Shown: piece by piece, positions 20,874 through 42,144 of the stretch | Position numbering within the stretch: position 1 is the first letter of the stretch | Layout of the letters: each line of letters opens with the position of its first letter | Position numbers and translations under genes: made by a program | Assembly: GCA_028873925.1 (NCBI GenBank) | Contig: JAPPNA010000080.1 | Location: forward strand, 1-44,565 | Origin: Bacteroidota bacterium | GTDB taxonomy: Bacteria; Bacteroidota; Rhodothermia; Rhodothermales; Bin80 | Length of the DNA: 44,565 nt | Reading direction: 5' to 3' | Notes under the pieces: generated by a model | Told to the model about the DNA's origin: nothing | The model's input: only the letters and a program-made list of their open reading frames with translations | Databases searched by the model: none

Positions 20874-20905
20874 CTTGATTGTACTAAGAATTTTTTGCTT
20901 ATCTT
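20874..20905 (+). promoter_or_regulatory. Candidate promoter of the Mrr-like gene pair
   Basis: CTTG at 20874-20877, a T-rich spacer of 22 bases and TATCTTGA at 20900-20907. This resembles the Bacteroidota pattern of TTTG and TAnnTTTG. Transcription would begin near 20914, giving a leader of about 43 bases before ATG 20956. The 11-mer TTGCTTATCTT here is repeated exactly ahead of the sulfatase gene. Confidence 0.5.
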
Positions 20906-20955
20906 GATGGTTTGTGCCGATTGAGGTACGCGCATTTCTGAACAACCGAAATTTC

Positions 20956-21801
20956 ATGACGAAGATTGCTCAACTCTACTGGCCCATTCTCCGGGCCCTG
21001 CAGCGCGGTTACAGTTCGCCGAAGGACCAACTGGCTGATGTCGCCCAATTCCTCTCTTGGTCGGATGAGGCTCTGGATCGTACGACCGCCCTGGGTCGCC
21101 CCATTCCGCAACGCATGATCGGAGCCCGCAATGTGCTCAGAGATTGTGGTGTATTGAAGAATGTGGGTCGGGGCCGGTGGGTCCTGACCTCCAAAGGTGA
21201 GGGGTTCTCCACCGAGGACGAATTGTTGGACTTTATTCAGCAGGAGAAGCCGGATCGCCGGAAGCTGCGCCGGAAAGGGGGGACCGCAACAGGTGCGGAG
21301 GCCAAAAAGGCGCTCCCGCAGCCGGTGGTGGCTCCGGCCCTTGACGTATCGGATTGGCAGCTGAAGCTGCTCCAGAAGATCGGACGCCTGTCCGTGATTC
21401 ATTTTGGCCGGATGTGTGCCGACTTGTTCAATGCCATAGGCTTTACTTCCGTACAGGTATCCGACCCCGCTACCAAGCAGATAGTGGATGGTCTGGGCTC
21501 GATGCAGGTAGGCATGGCCTCATTTGCGGTCTGTTTCCGGCTGCACAAGACCACCGGTGTGATTTCGCGCCAGGACATTCTCAGCTTCCGAGGCTCGATG
21601 GTCGGCAAGGCTGCGCGCGGCATTTACATTTCGACCAGTGAGTTCAGCGAGGGGGCCATGCAGGAGGCCAGCCGCTACGGGGCCCCGGCGATCAGTCTGA
21701 TCAACGGCAAAGAGCTCTGTGCGCAGTTGATGAAACAGCGTATCGGAGTCAGGATGGTCAAATCCGGTGCACCTGACCCGGAGTTTTTTGAGACTTTGTA
21801 A
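20956..21801 (+). CDS. Mrr-like two-domain protein A, catalytic motif degenerate
   Basis: A 281-residue protein with the two-domain build of Mrr-type restriction endonucleases. Residues 1-80 match the Mrr N-terminal winged-helix DNA-binding domain (QLYWPILRALQRG, IGARNVLRDCGVL, GRGRWVLTSKG). Residues 130-280 match the Mrr nuclease domain (FGRMCADLFNAIGFTSVQV, SFRGSMVGKAARGIYISTS, APAISLINGKEL). In active Mrr proteins the site is D plus Q-x-K; here D178 is kept (IVDGLG) but the Q-x-K position reads R195-L-H197. Cleavage is therefore doubtful. I chose ATG 20956 over GTG 20914 because the winged helix starts there and the predicted promoter leaves no room for the longer form. A paralog follows after 19 bases. 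Confidence 0.82.
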   Translation: MTKIAQLYWPILRALQRGYSSPKDQLADVAQFLSWSDEALDRTTALGRPIPQRMIGARNVLRDCGVLKNVGRGRWVLTSKGEGFSTEDELLDFIQQEKPDRRKLRRKGGTATGAEAKKALPQPVVAPALDVSDWQLKLLQKIGRLSVIHFGRMCADLFNAIGFTSVQVSDPATKQIVDGLGSMQVGMASFAVCFRLHKTTGVISRQDILSFRGSMVGKAARGIYISTSEFSEGAMQEASRYGAPAISLINGKELCAQLMKQRIGVRMVKSGAPDPEFFETL

Positions 21802-21820
21802 CAACAACTTACCTTAAGCC

Positions 21821-22909
21821 ATGAATATCCCGGATATGAGGGAACCGCTGCTGCCCATGAGTTTACCGGACCCGCAGCCGCCTGAGAATACCCCGGACCT
21901 GCAGCCGTTTGAAAATCCCCCGGAAGAAGCGGCCGCCCCGCCGCCTGTCCAAAGTCCCCAGGAGCAGATAGGCCCCTACAAGCGGTATCTGTGGCCGACG
22001 CTACAGGCGATCAAGAGCCTTGGGGATGAGGCCTCGAATGAAGAAATCAACGCGGCGGTCACGGGACTGTTGGAGCTGCCGGATGAGGTGCTCACCCTGC
22101 TTCACAAGGGCGGACCGAAGACGGAAGTTAACCATCGCATTGCCTGGGCGCGTACCAAGCTCAATACCATCGGTGCGGTTACCAACCTGAGCCGGGGCAT
22201 TTGGAAGATCTCGGAGAAAGGCTTGGCGATAAAGTCTGAAGCCGAGGTGCAGCAGATGGTCAGTGATGAAGACAATCGGCGGGCTACCGCGCGGAGGAAC
22301 AAGAAGAGTGTTGCCCTGAAGGTGGCTGCGCAGGAGCGGTATTCGGGTCAGGCCGACCTTCCTGCACACCTGCCGGCGCTGCCGAAGGCCTTGAGTCCAC
22401 AGGCCGCCCGCACGCGGAAAGTCCGCATGACACGGACCGCGCGTCCGGGCGGATCCTGGCAGGACCAGGTGCTTGGGCATATAAAACAGCTGTCCGCCGA
22501 TCAGTTCGTGTCGCTGTGCCGCCATCTGTTTACCGAATCCGGGTTTACGGCAGTGGATATTGAGCCGGCCGCGGAAGGCCATTTTTCCGGTCACGGACTG
22601 TTGGGGATAAATGTGCTGGTCTTCCGGGTCATGTTCGGCATCTACCTGCATGCGATCAATGAGGATGCCGTGCATAATCTGCGCGGAGCCATGATAGGTC
22701 GGGCGGAGCAGGGGTTGCTGTTGACCACAAGCCGGATTGCCGACGCGGCGCGCGAAGAGGCAAGTCGTCCGGGTGCTCCGCCGATTGAGTTGATTGACGG
22801 GCAGAAACTGTGCGACCTGCTGCGCGAGAAGAACCTGGGCGCGCGAACGGTTGAGGTGGCGGAAGTTCAGAATGCATATTTCTCAGGACTTGCCACCGCA
22901 GAGACCTGA
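21821..22909 (+). CDS. Mrr-like two-domain protein B, catalytic residues lost
   Basis: A 362-residue paralog of the preceding protein. Residues 1-47 are a Pro/Glu-rich, probably disordered tail. Residues 50-145 are the Mrr N-terminal winged helix (YKRYLWPTLQAIKSLG, RIAWARTKLNTIGAV, GIWKISEKG). The middle is basic. Residues 225-345 match the Mrr nuclease domain very well in frame (DQFVSLCRHLFTESGFTAVDI, LRGAMIGRAEQGLLLTTS, GAPPIELIDGQKLCDLL). The expected catalytic D, Q and K positions read S256, G273 and Y275, with the same 17-residue spacing as in protein A, so this is loss by substitution, not misalignment. It is intact as a reading frame and so is probably under selection. It may bind DNA, perhaps modified DNA, with protein A. 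No methyltransferase is nearby. Confidence 0.82.
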   Translation: MNIPDMREPLLPMSLPDPQPPENTPDLQPFENPPEEAAAPPPVQSPQEQIGPYKRYLWPTLQAIKSLGDEASNEEINAAVTGLLELPDEVLTLLHKGGPKTEVNHRIAWARTKLNTIGAVTNLSRGIWKISEKGLAIKSEAEVQQMVSDEDNRRATARRNKKSVALKVAAQERYSGQADLPAHLPALPKALSPQAARTRKVRMTRTARPGGSWQDQVLGHIKQLSADQFVSLCRHLFTESGFTAVDIEPAAEGHFSGHGLLGINVLVFRVMFGIYLHAINEDAVHNLRGAMIGRAEQGLLLTTSRIADAAREEASRPGAPPIELIDGQKLCDLLREKNLGARTVEVAEVQNAYFSGLATAET

Positions 22910-27979: not shown

Positions 27980-29770
27980 TCACGGCCGGTACACGAAGTC
28001 GACGGAGCGCTCTCTGGCGACTCCCTGCACCAGGTCTGTTGCTCGGACCGTGATGGTAACAGGTCCCGGCTCATGCCAGGTAGTCAGGTCAATCATCAGC
28101 TGCTCCTGCGCGACGCGCGAACTGCCTTCAAAGGTGGTGGCCGCCGACACGGTTTGTGGCCGCCGGTCATCCATGCTGCGGATGGTGTACGACACTTCAT
28201 ATCGTGTCTGTTCATCGTCCCCATAGGCGAGATGATACAGCTCAAAGTACAGACCCAGGGACAGATCCGGGGTGATCTCTGTACCGGCGTAGGGCGTAAT
28301 CAGGTTGGGGCGTGCGGCATTGGGCACCGTGATCGGTCGGATATCGCTCATTTCCAGCCGAAGACCCTCACTGTGCAGCGCCTTGATGGAGTCAAGTGAG
28401 ATCACACCGATCCCCAAGGTAGCTGTGGGTTCATACCGGCCATCGCCGGCCTGTTCCGCCCAATACTGCTGCCACTGCATGGCTAGGTTCTGAATGTCAC
28501 CGTTCAGTTCGCTCTCCCAGGTGTGCACCGGCAGGGTGCCGTTCATTGCTGCCGGGAGGCGGTAGTATCGGTGGCTCAGGGTGGTTGGCGCAAAATCCGC
28601 ACGCCGGTGGGTGCCGGTGACCACCATGAGGTAATCATCAGACGGTGCATGTCCATCCCGCCGCAGGCGGTTGACGAGGCGCCGTCGGGGCCTGAGCTGG
28701 CCGGCCTCCAGACTCCAGTAGACTTCAAGCCGCGTCACTCCGTCGGGCCGCAGAAAACGCGCCCAGCGAATGGATGGCTGCAGATGTTGGGCAATCCCGT
28801 ACACCTGCGTGGCCGAGGCCGGAACGGTTGACTGCCGACTCAGATCGTGGTGATCGTCCCGCAGCCGCTGGTCCTCAATGAGGAATTTGGCAAAGTAAAA
28901 GGGCGGTCTGGCATCCGATGTGGCCAGCGTCAGATAATTGGTGACGGCATCATAGCTGGCACCATAGTGGGGATGTTCCAGTGCTAACTGGGCCAGAATT
29001 TCCTCGAGCCAAGTCAGCAGGAGCGTGGACTTGCGCCGGTTGGCCCGCAGGTTGGGCGGGATCAGGTCTTCGGTGCTGCTGAGCCGGAATGCCTGCCTGC
29101 GTGACCTTTGCACAAACAGGTAGTGTGCGTCATCGTGAATTCCCCTATAGACCCAGATTTCGTTGCGGGGCAAGGTGCCCTCATACGGCTGCATCCGCAG
29201 GCCGGCCGTACGGAGCTTCACGGAGGTCTGCCGGAACGGATCTCCGAGGCGTATATAAATGCGTCCGCGATCATCGAGTCCTACTGAATCCCTTTCGGCG
29301 GCGAAGTGGCGCTTTGCATGGTAGATGCGGTAGAGGTGCTCTTCCAGGCGCTCATTGTGAACTGTGGCTGGTAGGGGGTCCTGGCGATGCCACCAGCTGA
29401 CCAGCACCTGGCTGTCCTGAGGATTGCCCGCGCCGATGCGAATCGCTTCGGCGGCTTTGTGCGCAATATCATCCTTCGGGATGACCAGTAACATGTAGGC
29501 CAGGTGATGCGTTAACATGGTCCGTTCATCCTCAGAAGTAATGCTCGCTGCCTGATGCAGCATACCCAGGTAGAGTGTGGCTGCCTCCTGGTAGGCCAGT
29601 ATCCGGCCTTCGTCAAACACCTCGGCGACGGCTGCCTCAACCTCCGCAAAGTCTTGCTGGGCCTGTACGACACCCGGCAGGAAGGCTACTGCCAGCAGCA
29701 CCGCGTCGACCCACAGCACCTGGCCGACCGAGCGCCGGGCACCTCCATAGAGAGACGGGTAAGTCCGCAT
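27980..29770 (-). CDS. Secreted GWxTD-domain-like protein, unknown function
   Basis: A 596-residue exported protein (signal peptide about residues 1-38, cleavage at VVQAQ). Residues 120-230 resemble the GWxTD domain found in Bacteroidota/Rhodothermota secreted proteins: WWHRQDPLPATVHNERLEEH, AKRHFA, then DDRGRIYIRLGDP and later RNEIWVYRG. The name motif itself (usually GWRTDRGR) is degenerate here, reading VGLDDRGR. The C-terminal half (about 380-590) looks beta-rich, with EVSYTIRSMDDR and VTITVRATDLVQGV, probably an Ig-like domain. The ATG at 29770 overlaps the ATG of the divergent + strand gene in the same CATG. The function of this family is not known; I would not propose one. Confidence 0.78.
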   Translation of the reverse strand: MRTYPSLYGGARRSVGQVLWVDAVLLAVAFLPGVVQAQQDFAEVEAAVAEVFDEGRILAYQEAATLYLGMLHQAASITSEDERTMLTHHLAYMLLVIPKDDIAHKAAEAIRIGAGNPQDSQVLVSWWHRQDPLPATVHNERLEEHLYRIYHAKRHFAAERDSVGLDDRGRIYIRLGDPFRQTSVKLRTAGLRMQPYEGTLPRNEIWVYRGIHDDAHYLFVQRSRRQAFRLSSTEDLIPPNLRANRRKSTLLLTWLEEILAQLALEHPHYGASYDAVTNYLTLATSDARPPFYFAKFLIEDQRLRDDHHDLSRQSTVPASATQVYGIAQHLQPSIRWARFLRPDGVTRLEVYWSLEAGQLRPRRRLVNRLRRDGHAPSDDYLMVVTGTHRRADFAPTTLSHRYYRLPAAMNGTLPVHTWESELNGDIQNLAMQWQQYWAEQAGDGRYEPTATLGIGVISLDSIKALHSEGLRLEMSDIRPITVPNAARPNLITPYAGTEITPDLSLGLYFELYHLAYGDDEQTRYEVSYTIRSMDDRRPQTVSAATTFEGSSRVAQEQLMIDLTTWHEPGPVTITVRATDLVQGVARERSVDFVYRP

Positions 29771-37364: not shown

Positions 37365-37759
37365 GCGGAGCCGGGGCCGGGGTGCACCACGGATAAGACT
37401 CTCATGCCCGCTTTTCGCCGGCTGCCGCGTCTGTTGGAAGTGCTGCAGACCGCACAGGAGCATTGCCTGCGCTTTATGAATCCGCTGGCCCGGACTGAAG
37501 TACTCATCTTGGACGATCGGGGCTTCCGCAGCCTGGAGTCCGTTCAACGGCGACACCTGACGGAGCTCATTGAAGATTGGTGCAACCTGAAGTCCACCTT
37601 GGTCACGAGTCAGTATTCCGTTGAAGATTGGCATCACCGACCCCATGCCGGCGGATGCCGTCTCGGATCGTCCACAATGCCCACCGACTCCCGTTCTCAG
37701 GTGAGTCCATGCGGAAGGTGCTTGAACAGCAGGAAATCGCAAACCGGATCACCAAATGA
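37365..37759 (+). pseudogene. Decayed istB (IS21-family helper ATPase)
   Basis: Directly after the istA remnant comes a broken IstB. The Walker A region reads GPGCTTDKTL (G of GK changed to D) and runs after a short deletion into RRLPRLLEVLQTAQ, then the Walker B VLILDDRG (37500 region), QRRHLTELIEDWCNLKSTLVTSQYSVEDWH. The frame then shifts to ITDPMPADAVSDR and again, from 37670, to VHNAHRLPFSGESMRKVLEQ ending at TGA 37757. The first ~100 residues of IstB are missing, fused to the istA end, so the element has suffered an internal deletion besides frameshifts. It cannot be active. Confidence 0.85.
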
Positions 37760-38137
37760 TGTCCACAATTCTGAACGGGTCAAGGTGGCCCTCTTCGCTC
37801 GGAATTGATACCAGACTCCCAGCCGCGGTGCCCGCCTCAGTCGGAATCAGCGGTCCGCAGAGCCGGAATATGCAGATAAGGCAATAACTGAAGACATCAG
37901 TCTGATCGCCCGCAAAGGGGCCTTATTATCCCGTTGCATCCTGCAATGGTAAACTTTAGCAGTGTCACAGGTTCGGAATGTGAGCTGGTCACCTTTCACC
38001 GGATTTCAGCGTCCAAGATATGTGATCCAAGTCGGCCTTTACCCGTTTAACGACAGCATGTACGATACCAACCGATCAAAGGCGCATAATTCTCAGGACC
38101 GCAACAAGCAGTTCCGGCACCTACAACAGCTATCTTC
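37760..38137 (+). other. IS21 right-end remnant and leader of the SNF2 gene
   Basis: No gene. Bases about 37779-37807 (GGGTCAAGGTGGCC, then TTCGCTCGGAATTG) resemble the sub-terminal repeats found downstream of istB in IS21-family elements, so the element's right end probably lies near 37800-37820. The rest is AT-richer, with a small TTGCA-TCC-TGCAA hairpin at about 37934-37946 and a TAAACTTT near 37951, a possible promoter element of the SNF2 gene. No Shine-Dalgarno site precedes ATG 38138. Confidence 0.5.
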
Positions 38138-41100
38138 ATGCACATCTGTCACGGCACTTGGATTCCCGCCAGTGGCCCCCGCTTTGAAAACCTCGGGCAA
38201 TTTATCCTTTGGGTGGAGACTTCAGCCCATCAGGGTGGCACGGCAGCCCCGAAGACCGGCACGCATCCCAGCCATATTGCTGACTTTGACGGGCTAAGCA
38301 GCTTTCTGTTGTCGGATCTGTCCATTACGAGGGCGGTCCAAAAGGCACTCGATCCCGAACTGTCTCATTTCTACGCGACGCTCCCAAGTACGGGCGCACG
38401 GCCCCTGCCGAGCCCGGAAATGGCTCAGCTTAACGGAGAGTATTTGCCGGACGAGTATCGGTGGCGCACTTGGAAGGTATACGGTCTTGCGGTGGGCCGG
38501 CCGCTGCTTTTACTGCGCCAGCTGCAGTTCAGCGCCAGTCTCGGCAGACCTGGCATCCACTTGGGCGGGGACCTCAAATTCTGGATTCAATATGCCCGGC
38601 ATTTCCGCAATATAGTTCGCCAGCACCAATTCCTGCCCGTGATCAAATGCCAGCGGCCAGCCAGAAAAGGCACTCGCAGAAGGTTCCATACCGGATGGTC
38701 CCCTGCGGCTGTGAATTACGATCAGGGCCTGCGGGATTTCGCGGCTTCCATGCCGGGCATCTGTAGAGTCGTCAGCGACAAACTAACCCGGAGGGGTACA
38801 CATGACCATGCTGTCTGCCTTTCCGCCTTTGAATTACTCCGGCATTTTTCGGAGCAGCAGCTGGACCGCTTGGTCACCGACTCCGCTGTTACCAAAAAGA
38901 TGCTCAGCCAGCTTGGTGACAGTTGGCTGGCGGCTGCAGTGAGCGGATCAGGAGTAAAGCCACCGGGGGCCGGAGATCTCACGGCAAAGCGGTGGCAGCA
39001 GTGGCATTCGTGGCATCAGGACATTCTCGGTCGCTCAGGTCAGGAGGATGGTGCCGGCTTTGTACTCGGTCTTCGATTGGACCAGAATGGAAAACGCGAT
39101 GATGACTGGAGCCTGAGCTTCTTTGTTGCGTCCCGTCAGGACCCTTCGCTTAGAATTGACCTGGTGGAGTGGTGGGAATTATCTAAGGCCAAGAAAACGC
39201 AATGGCTCAAGGAGTTCGGCCAGCAGTTTGAACGCAAGCTGCTGGTCAATCTGGGGCATGCAGCGCGCATCTGCCCTCTATTGTGGCAGGGCATGGAGTC
39301 CTCGCATCCTATAGGATTTGAACTGGATTTACAGACCGCGTACACATTTCTGAAGGACGATGCTCTGGTGCTTGAGTCTGCCGGATTCAAGATTCTCTTG
39401 CCAAGCTGGTGGACACCGCAGGGTCGCCGGCGCGCGCGATTGCGGGTCAAGGCATCCATCAAGTCGCAATCATCCGCACTGGCCGGTACGGGTGCCGGCT
39501 ACTTTGATTTGCCCTCGCTGGTGGATTATCGCTATGAACTCTCCATTGGCGGGGAGCCGGTCAGCGAGAAGGAATGGCAAAACCTGATCGATGCCAAGAC
39601 ACCTCTTGTCCGCTTTCGAGGCGAATGGATGGAGCTGGATCATCAGCAGATGACACAGATGCTTGAACAGTGGCACCAGCAGGACGACGATGGACTCACT
39701 GTTGGAGAATTACTGAAGCAGGTTGCCGAAGTGGATGAGGATACCACCGAATATGTGTTTGACGAGGCTCTCGGGAGAACGCTGAAGGGATTGCAGCAAC
39801 AATCGAGTCTAAAGCCAATGGGCGACCCGGCCGGACTGCAGGGCCGATTGAGACCGTATCAACAGAAGGGTCTGTCGTGGCTCGTCCAGCAGGAGTCTTT
39901 GGGGTTGAGCCCCTGCCTGGCGGACGACATGGGGCTTGGCAAGACGGTGCAGGTGATCGCGCTGTTGCTGCACGAGCGGGAGCGGTATGCAAACAACTCT
40001 GGCACCATGCCGCTGGCGCCCACCCTCCTGGTAGCGCCGACATCTGTACTGAGCAACTGGCAGAAGGAAGTCAACAAATTCGCTCCGCAGCTCAAGACCT
40101 CGATCCACCATGGCAGCGAGCGGGCGGACGAACCGGCATCCTTGGGTGTGATCTGTGACACCCATGACATCGTCATTACTTCGTTTAGCTTAGCGCGCAG
40201 GGACAGGGAGCTGCTGACCGGGCAGCAATGGCATCGCGTCGTGGTGGATGAAGCGCAGAACATCAAGAACCCCAAGTCCGCCCAGGCCAAAGCCATCTTT
40301 TCTCTCAGTGCTCCGAGTCGTATCGCCCTTACGGGGACTCCGATTGAGAATCGTCTGATGGATCTGTGGTCTCTGTTCAATTTCCTTAATCCCGGCTACC
40401 TCGGCAACGCGACACAATTCCGCAAGGCCTACGAGACCCCCATACAGCGGCATGGGGACGAGGGGAAGTCAAGACTGCTGCAACGCCTGGTGCAGCCATT
40501 CATCCTTCGTCGACTGAAGACGGATCGGTCAATAATTGACGATCTGCCGGAGAAGCTTGAGCAGAAGGTTTACTGCAGTCTGACCAAGGAACAGGCTTCG
40601 CTTTATCAGGCAGTAGTGGATGATGTACAGGAGGAGATACAGAAACTGGAGGGAATCAAGCGCAAGGGGCTGATTCTGTCCACGCTGATGAAACTCAAGC
40701 AGATCTGCAACCATCCGGCCCAGTTTCTCCAGGATGGCAGTGCCTTCACTGAAAAACGGTCACAAAAACTGACGCGTCTGAACGAAATGGTAGCGGAAGC
40801 GCTGAGTGAGTCAGACAGTCTGTTGCTCTTCACCCAGTTTACGGAGATTGGCGACCGTTTGGAAACGCATCTGCGTCAGCGGCACGGTTGCCCAGTCAAT
40901 TACCTCCATGGCGGAACCAGCCGCAAGCGCAGAGAGCAGATGATCGAAACGTTTCAGGATCCTGAATCTCTTGCAGGAATATTTATCTTATCGCTCAAGG
41001 CCGGTGGCGTTGGCATAACGCTGACGCGCGCGAATCACGTATTCCATTTTGACCGGTGGTGGAATCCGGCGGTGGAGAATCAGGCTACGGACCGCGCCTA

Positions 41101-41305
41101 CCGGATCGGCCAGAAGAAAACAGTGTTCGCCCACAAGATGGTTACCGTGGGGACGCTGGAAGAGCGTATAGACACCATGATTGAAGATAAGCAGGGACTG
41201 GCCGACAGCATTGTCGGCACCGACGAAAGCTGGCTTGCACGAATGGATGATTCCGCCTTCCGCGAGCTTATCCAATTGAATCGCAGTGCCATTATGGAGG
41301 CGTAA
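38138..41305 (+). CDS. SNF2-family (Rad54-like) DNA-dependent ATPase/helicase
   Basis: A 1055-residue bacterial SNF2 protein. The N-terminal half (about 1-560), starting MHICHGTWIPASGPRF, is the bacterial SNF2-associated region. The motor has motif I DDMGLGKT (K602), Ia LLVAPTSVLSNWQ, II DEAQ (704-707), III LTGTPIENRLMDLWSLF, then after a linker LKQICNHPAQFL, IV LLFTQFTEIGDRL, V SLKAGGVGITLTRANHVFHFD and VI NQATDRAYRIGQ, i.e. complete and probably active. SNF2 ATPases move along duplex DNA to remodel protein-DNA complexes. The closest organisation is the B. subtilis YwqA/YwqB-type and the mycobacterial HelZ pairs, in which a SWIM zinc-finger gene follows directly; here it starts 14 bases later. 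Role in DNA repair or transcription-complex removal is inferred. It lies next to a decayed IS element. Confidence 0.93.
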   Translation: MHICHGTWIPASGPRFENLGQFILWVETSAHQGGTAAPKTGTHPSHIADFDGLSSFLLSDLSITRAVQKALDPELSHFYATLPSTGARPLPSPEMAQLNGEYLPDEYRWRTWKVYGLAVGRPLLLLRQLQFSASLGRPGIHLGGDLKFWIQYARHFRNIVRQHQFLPVIKCQRPARKGTRRRFHTGWSPAAVNYDQGLRDFAASMPGICRVVSDKLTRRGTHDHAVCLSAFELLRHFSEQQLDRLVTDSAVTKKMLSQLGDSWLAAAVSGSGVKPPGAGDLTAKRWQQWHSWHQDILGRSGQEDGAGFVLGLRLDQNGKRDDDWSLSFFVASRQDPSLRIDLVEWWELSKAKKTQWLKEFGQQFERKLLVNLGHAARICPLLWQGMESSHPIGFELDLQTAYTFLKDDALVLESAGFKILLPSWWTPQGRRRARLRVKASIKSQSSALAGTGAGYFDLPSLVDYRYELSIGGEPVSEKEWQNLIDAKTPLVRFRGEWMELDHQQMTQMLEQWHQQDDDGLTVGELLKQVAEVDEDTTEYVFDEALGRTLKGLQQQSSLKPMGDPAGLQGRLRPYQQKGLSWLVQQESLGLSPCLADDMGLGKTVQVIALLLHERERYANNSGTMPLAPTLLVAPTSVLSNWQKEVNKFAPQLKTSIHHGSERADEPASLGVICDTHDIVITSFSLARRDRELLTGQQWHRVVVDEAQNIKNPKSAQAKAIFSLSAPSRIALTGTPIENRLMDLWSLFNFLNPGYLGNATQFRKAYETPIQRHGDEGKSRLLQRLVQPFILRRLKTDRSIIDDLPEKLEQKVYCSLTKEQASLYQAVVDDVQEEIQKLEGIKRKGLILSTLMKLKQICNHPAQFLQDGSAFTEKRSQKLTRLNEMVAEALSESDSLLLFTQFTEIGDRLETHLRQRHGCPVNYLHGGTSRKRREQMIETFQDPESLAGIFILSLKAGGVGITLTRANHVFHFDRWWNPAVENQATDRAYRIGQKKTVFAHKMVTVGTLEERIDTMIEDKQGLADSIVGTDESWLARMDDSAFRELIQLNRSAIMEA

Positions 41306-41319
41306 AGATCCGGCGAAAC

Positions 41320-42144
41320 ATGCGTACTTGGTGGGGAGAAAAATTCCTTGACGTACTGGCCACCTGCATGGATCAGGGCCGGCTGCAGCGCGGCCGGGCT
41401 TATTCGGGCCCACGCCGTCTGCTGAAGTTCAACATTGATGGCCAGACCGTTGAGGCAGTCATGCGCGGCAATAAAAACCCGTATTTCGGGGTTTACACGG
41501 AGCCGCGCTACAAGGTATCTGTGCGGCTCAAGCAGTTTTCCGCAAAGGATTGGAACAGGATTACCGAAGCGGTCAGTCTCAATACGGCCGTGCTGTGCCA
41601 CCTGCTTATGAATGAAATGCCGCCGACCATTGAGAGCATCTTCTTTGAGAACAATCTCCATCTGCTTCCCCGAAAACGGTCGGACCTGATCGTTTCGTGT
41701 TCATGCCCCGACTATGCCAATCCCTGCAAACATATTGCGGGCGTGTACTACAAGATCGCTTCTCTGCTTGACCGGGATCCGCTCCTCGTATTCCAATTGC
41801 GCGGGATGACCTTTGACCGGCTCCAGAAAAAGCTGATTTCGTCCCCTTTGGGGCAGGCCTTGATTGACCACAGAAAAGAGGACACGCAGGAGATTGAATA
41901 CCGGTCCCATCGCTACACCGCCCCGCAGATCGAACCGTTGGAGACGGTCAGCCTGCGGTCCTTTTGGCAGGGCCTGTCCTCTCCCCCACGCGTTGATGCC
42001 ATGGTCCGCAGTGCGGTCACACCTGCCGTACTGATCAGGAAAGGCGGCGACTACCCTTCCTTCTGGACCAAATACAAATCCTTCATTGAGACCATGGAGC
42101 CCATCTACACTCGGGTGGTGGATAAGAACAAGAATTCTCTTTAG
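41320..42144 (+). CDS. SWIM zinc-finger protein, partner of the SNF2 helicase
   Basis: A 274-residue protein with a SWIM zinc finger: C127-x-C129-x6-C136-x-H138 in SCSCPDYANPCKHIAGVYY, an exact fit to the CxC..CxH signature. The N-terminus MRTWWGEKFLDVL and YSGPRRLLKFNIDGQTVEAV, with VRLKQFSAKDW, is the pattern of bacterial SWIM proteins encoded beside SNF2 helicases. SWIM domains bind DNA or protein; in this pair it probably directs the helicase. The gene begins 14 bases after the SNF2 stop, so they are cotranscribed. The C-terminal 70 residues are less conserved. It is convergent with the VWA gene, with 110 bases between. Confidence 0.9.
   Translation: MRTWWGEKFLDVLATCMDQGRLQRGRAYSGPRRLLKFNIDGQTVEAVMRGNKNPYFGVYTEPRYKVSVRLKQFSAKDWNRITEAVSLNTAVLCHLLMNEMPPTIESIFFENNLHLLPRKRSDLIVSCSCPDYANPCKHIAGVYYKIASLLDRDPLLVFQLRGMTFDRLQKKLISSPLGQALIDHRKEDTQEIEYRSHRYTAPQIEPLETVSLRSFWQGLSSPPRVDAMVRSAVTPAVLIRKGGDYPSFWTKYKSFIETMEPIYTRVVDKNKNSL

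Follow-up and report, generated by a model that had tools for sequence, protein, structure and literature searches.

Why would a bacterium keep two neighbouring genes for Mrr-type restriction endonucleases when neither product has retained the catalytic residues of that family? The question is raised by two genes, termed A and B here, on contig JAPPNA010000080.1 of a Bacteroidota bacterium (GCA_028873925.1), whose 44,565 nucleotides are referred to as the window. The host genome is a 3.93-Mb draft. A relative labelled Rhodothermales, Rhodothermales bacterium Plut_88870 (JAAXGT010000020, hereafter G001), belongs to another genus of the same family and carries the same two genes, A' and B', in the same order and upstream of the same SusC/SusD genes.

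Gene arrangement and domain structure

The coordinates of both genes in the initial annotation are correct, as is its statement that the two reading frames are intact (Table 1). The frame of A is also open from an upstream GTG at 20914, but the ATG at 20956 matches the start in G001 better. A and B are probably transcribed together; the spacing between them is 19 bp in the window as compared with 83 bp in G001. Each protein carries a winged helix followed by a nuclease-type domain, and both domains exceed the Pfam cut-offs with 30.8 bits (Mrr_N) and 51.6 bits (Mrr_cat) for A and 65.9 and 49 bits, respectively, for B. The winged helices, which had been described as conserved, can still be recognised, that of A being the weaker of the two: W56 is gone and the score lies just above the Mrr_N cut-off.

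Table 1. Positions of the A-B pair, of the domains of its products and of further features mentioned in the text
Feature	Position	Strand	Remarks
Putative promoter element of the A-B unit, TTTTGCTTA	20893..20914	+	common to the G001 upstream region at a similar distance from A; weak match, E about 0.3
Gene for protein A	20956..21801	+	281 aa; Pfam, alignment, AlphaFold
A, winged helix (Mrr_N)	aa 6-83		
A, Mrr_cat-type domain, preceded by a linker	aa 145-256		catalytic set replaced: G151, D178, R195, H197
A stop to B start	21802..21820	+	19-bp gap, same strand
Gene for protein B	21821..22909	+	362 aa; Pfam, alignment, AlphaFold
B, Pro-rich disordered N-terminal tail	aa 1-46		no counterpart in G001
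B, winged helix (Mrr_N)	aa 53-138		
B, long basic helix and linker	aa 140-210		
B, Mrr_cat-type domain	aa 221-334		catalytic set replaced: V230, S256, G273, Y275 or gap
Protein without Pfam match	27983-29770	-	595 aa
IS21 IstB-like ATPase fragment	37404-37808	+	likely insertion-sequence remnant
SNF2 helicase with DUF3670, then SWIM zinc-finger protein	38138-42144	+	helicase: strong PADLOC matches to ZorD and DpdE
Schlafen AlbA_2 protein (Pfam), sister genus	L163:4588-5250		

The neighbours of the pair are housekeeping and nutrient-uptake genes. Three other features of the window are recorded in Table 1. The 595-aa protein is about 49% identical in G001, where it occupies the same place between SusD and an FG-GAP/UnbV gene. 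The SNF2 and SWIM genes, about 15 kb away from A-B, possibly constitute a defence or chromatin-like gene pair. The third is the fragment of an IS21 IstB-like ATPase.

Loss of the active site

Catalytic relatives read GDGGIDG ... FQCKRY, and D, Q and K are invariant in 85 of 85 aligned relative rows (80 genome_contigs loci plus order members, two rows being repeats). The four catalytic positions E-D-Q-K read G-D-R-H in A, V-S-G-Y in B, E-E-R-T in A' and K-V-H-I in B', that is, none of the four proteins possesses the (E)...D...Q-x-K set of a catalytic Mrr. This bears out the residues originally reported for A (D178 kept, R195 and H197 in place of Q and K) and for B (S256, G273 and, when read gap-free, Y275). 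The upstream Glu of the catalytic helix has changed too, to G151 in A and V230 in B. The surrounding sequence had been said to align without gaps and mostly does so, except that A is one residue short before the second strand and that the lysine position of B falls into a 2-residue MAFFT gap; the catalytic K is absent from B under either alignment. Losses in the two proteins had furthermore been called complementary, which is wrong. Q-x-K is missing from all four pair proteins, so that A and B cannot complete each other's site and complementation between them is ruled out.

Among residues that are invariant in the relatives, the pair proteins have kept only 2 of 16 catalytic cells as opposed to 80 of 112 others (Fisher p = 9e-6, an indicative value because the cells are related by descent). 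The active-site hairpin is 24-36% identical and the C half 52-56% identical in the pair, whereas both are 68% identical in active relatives. Within the domain, the hairpin bearing the site thus shows the lowest conservation in the pair, but in active relatives it does not differ from the rest. Judged from the alignment, constraint is lost specifically at the active site, and catalytic invariants disappear far more often than other invariants, beyond chance. The absence of the site is common to both genera but the exact residues are not, since A and A' read D-R-H and E-R-T and B and B' read S-G-Y and V-H-I at the D-Q-K positions. On the aligned residues, then, what has been conserved is that the site is missing, and not a new set of residues.

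Conservation and distribution of the pair

A is 42% identical to A' and B is 44% identical to B'; for SusC, SusD and ScpA the values between the two genomes are 84%, 83% and 55%. The distance from the pair to the downstream SusC gene is 259 bp in the window and about 358 bp in G001. At codon positions 1, 2 and 3, identity amounts to.54,.64 and.33 for A and A' (281 aligned codons) and to.53,.66 and.36 for B and B' (295 aligned codons). Third positions are thus near saturation while first and second positions are held, which indicates purifying selection on the proteins and not decay. Scattered substitutions and frameshifts in relatives had been named as the signature of simple decay; what is found are four intact frames with constrained codon positions and two genes that stay together in the same order in a second genus. 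The view put forward in the initial annotation, that the pair is selected, is upheld by this conservation under purifying selection, and the shared loss of the site makes it very probable that the pair does not cleave.

An orthologue of SusD is present in all 16 genomes of the family, A-B in only two. In another member (G006), FAD synthetase, PNPase, M16 peptidase and SusC genes follow each other, the last two being separated by only about 380 bp, so that a site without the pair exists. The pair was also sought at three taxonomic levels (order, 114 genomes; class, 245; phylum, 394) and in the genome_contigs, viral-contig, phage and plasmid collections. Outside the two genomes only single-copy relatives came up; there was no match in phages, and the viral contigs gave three singles. 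Two catalytic single-copy relatives (L085 and L096; Algoriphagus hitonicola, a Bacteroidia MAG) have an in-frame stop and appear to be decaying, as opposed to the intact pair. In several genomes of the sister genus, the place of A-B directly upstream of the orthologous SusC gene is taken by a gene for a Schlafen AlbA_2 protein, identified by Pfam at L163 (Table 1) and, for similar open reading frames at L157, L161 and L164, by eye.

Origin of the pair

In a tree of 98 rows, A, A', B and B' form one clade (SH-aLRT 99) that is split into (A,A') and (B,B') and is nested within the catalytic, single-copy Mrr family. This topology implies one duplication before the two genera separated. Its closest neighbours in the tree come from MAGs of Gemmatimonadota, Acidobacteriota and Proteobacteria rather than from the single-copy proteins of Rhodothermales, which suggests that the gene was acquired by transfer, then duplicated, and that the site was lost thereafter. 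Since Q-x-K is absent from all four proteins, it is simpler to assume that the loss preceded the duplication, but the D kept in A and replaced by E in A' indicates that erosion continued after the duplication. The pair lineage evolves fast and its branches are long. When placed alone, B still joins the same catalytic relatives (support 97) while A fails to resolve, and the sister relation of A and B could in part be due to long-branch attraction.

Predicted structure and charge

AlphaFold models of the single chains, built from 41 aligned sequences, have mean pLDDT values of 87.4 (A) and 85.6 (B) and comprise a winged helix, a long helix with linker, and the core strands and helices of the PD-(D/E)XK fold. 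The fold is accordingly predicted to be intact in both proteins. The pTM values are low (0.55 and 0.49), probably reflecting free orientation of the domains in the models. The best Foldseek matches in the PDB are MspJI and AspBHI, followed by RPB5.

The winged helix and linker together carry net charges of +7 in A, +9 in A', +10 in B and +13 in B', compared with a maximum of +6 and a median of -2 among 93 relatives; as only two lineages are represented, these four values are not independent observations. The Mrr_cat-type domains are basic in A and A' (+5 and +2) and acidic in B and B' (-7 and -6, equal to or lower than the minimum among all relatives). Such opposite charges hint at a physical complex of A and B.

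Proposed function and alternatives

We consider it rather likely that A and B are tandem-duplicated pseudo-nucleases derived from one Mrr, which form a hetero-oligomer and bind DNA without cutting it. The ancestor would have been a single-copy catalytic Mrr of type IV-like architecture (Mrr_N plus Mrr_cat) that was duplicated in tandem. Metal-binding and cleaving residues are gone from both copies in two genera, and the N-terminal half has turned more basic. Gene pairing and charge suggest that A and B probably form a heteromer, the contact being made through the nuclease-like domains, one basic and one acidic. Two winged helices and the basic linkers would hold the DNA without cleavage, and the complex may work through occupancy of the DNA or through recruitment. 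It could shape DNA architecture, serve as a repressor, or sense the DNA feature once cut by the ancestor. A more far-reaching version, in which both non-cleaving copies have been remodelled into a DNA-binding complex that is obligately heteromeric and has a role outside restriction, a bacterial counterpart of FANCM-FAAP24, is put forward tentatively.

A defence module that recognises modified or foreign DNA and blocks it, or recruits a nuclease encoded elsewhere, is a less likely function but the strongest competitor. It would agree with descent from a type IV restriction family, with PADLOC matches to mREase_IV, with the rapid evolution that is common in defence genes, and with the presence of inactive restriction endonucleases in HerA/FtsK-Orc/CDC6 conflict systems (PMC10853773). 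However, no nuclease or effector gene adjoins the pair, whose neighbours encode PNPase, an M16 peptidase, a sulfatase, SusCD and ScpAB; no further genome with the pair was found in the collections listed above, and G001 has no other Mrr_cat protein that could be recruited.

Regulation of the adjoining SusC/SusD uptake genes by A-B is improbable. The retained winged helices would fit a regulator, as would the location of A-B, which in both carrier genomes immediately precedes SusC and is co-oriented with it, but vertical inheritance of a syntenic block accounts for the adjacency, and the SusCD genes of the other 14 family genomes do without the pair. Comparison of the two B-SusC intergenic regions revealed no sequence similarity, and no shared DNA element or operator was found in them before SusC; nothing beyond adjacency supports control of SusCD by the pair.

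Migration of catalytic residues is known among PD-(D/E)XK proteins (PMC1189080), and with D178 kept in A and Glu at this position and in the helix of A', other acidic and basic residues might form a working nuclease site. Judged from sequence, this is very improbable, as neither A and A' nor B and B' have a D/E...K set near the strands in common, and B and B' lack D, Q or K at all three core positions. A role as antidote to an active Mrr likewise appears unlikely from gene content, the source genome having one other Mrr_cat gene (C161) and G001 none. Least credible of all is that a duplicated restriction gene is decaying neutrally. The poorly conserved hairpin and the genus-specific substitutions could be invoked for this view, which we reject on the basis of the codon-position test, the four intact frames, the other fold invariants kept and the conservation of the pair.

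If A and B are indeed DNA-binding pseudo-nucleases, they represent a clean and datable transition from a restriction enzyme to a conserved non-cleaving pair, with active outgroups, one duplication and two descendants in two genera. The pair allows one to ask what the DNA-recognition module of Mrr does once cutting is removed. It is also a warning, as annotation pipelines are likely to label both genes 'restriction endonuclease'.

Comparison with known systems

A tandem pair of separate Mrr proteins that are both dead was not found in the open-access literature searched. A and B resemble Mrr, a type IV modification-dependent restriction enzyme, in combining Mrr_N (PF14338) and Mrr_cat (PF04471) in the same order, both above the Pfam cut-offs, and in being nested within its family in the tree. 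They differ from it by the lack of the catalytic E-D-Q-K, by comprising two tandem genes instead of one and by a more basic DNA-binding half. EcoKMrr and its presumed winged-helix DNA-binding domain have been reviewed (PMC3874153).

NACHT-associated inactive restriction endonuclease 1 (NA-iREase1, PF22722) is a named family whose restriction endonuclease domains are catalytically dead. B just attains its profile cut-off (27.1 against 27) and A stays below it (22.5); Mrr_cat scores far higher for both, and no NACHT domain was found in the adjacent genes scanned with Pfam. The N-terminal domain of RPB5 from RNA polymerase II is a non-catalytic domain of the PD-(D/E)XK-type fold. It matches A in fold (E about 5e-4), though sequence kinship is not detectable and the partners differ.

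COG1395 has been described as carrying a degenerate PD-(D/E)XK domain that presumably retains nucleic-acid binding, and such a domain has been proposed for COG4127 (PMC1189080). These prokaryotic proteins parallel our reading of A and B in that the site is lost, or proposed to be lost, and nucleic-acid binding possibly retained; in them, however, the dead domain sits beside an active one within a single protein, whereas A and B are two separate proteins and both dead.

In the FANCM-FAAP24 heterodimer, the nuclease domains of both partners are degenerate (PMC3905867). It belongs to the eukaryotic XPF family and includes helix-hairpin-helix domains and a helicase, so that the likeness is one of analogy and not of family membership. 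The analogy lies in two partners with degenerate nuclease domains that act by binding DNA. A and B bring to it one hallmark of a pseudo-nuclease heterodimer, namely paralogous partners with degenerate sites that arose by one duplication and have been kept together in two genera.
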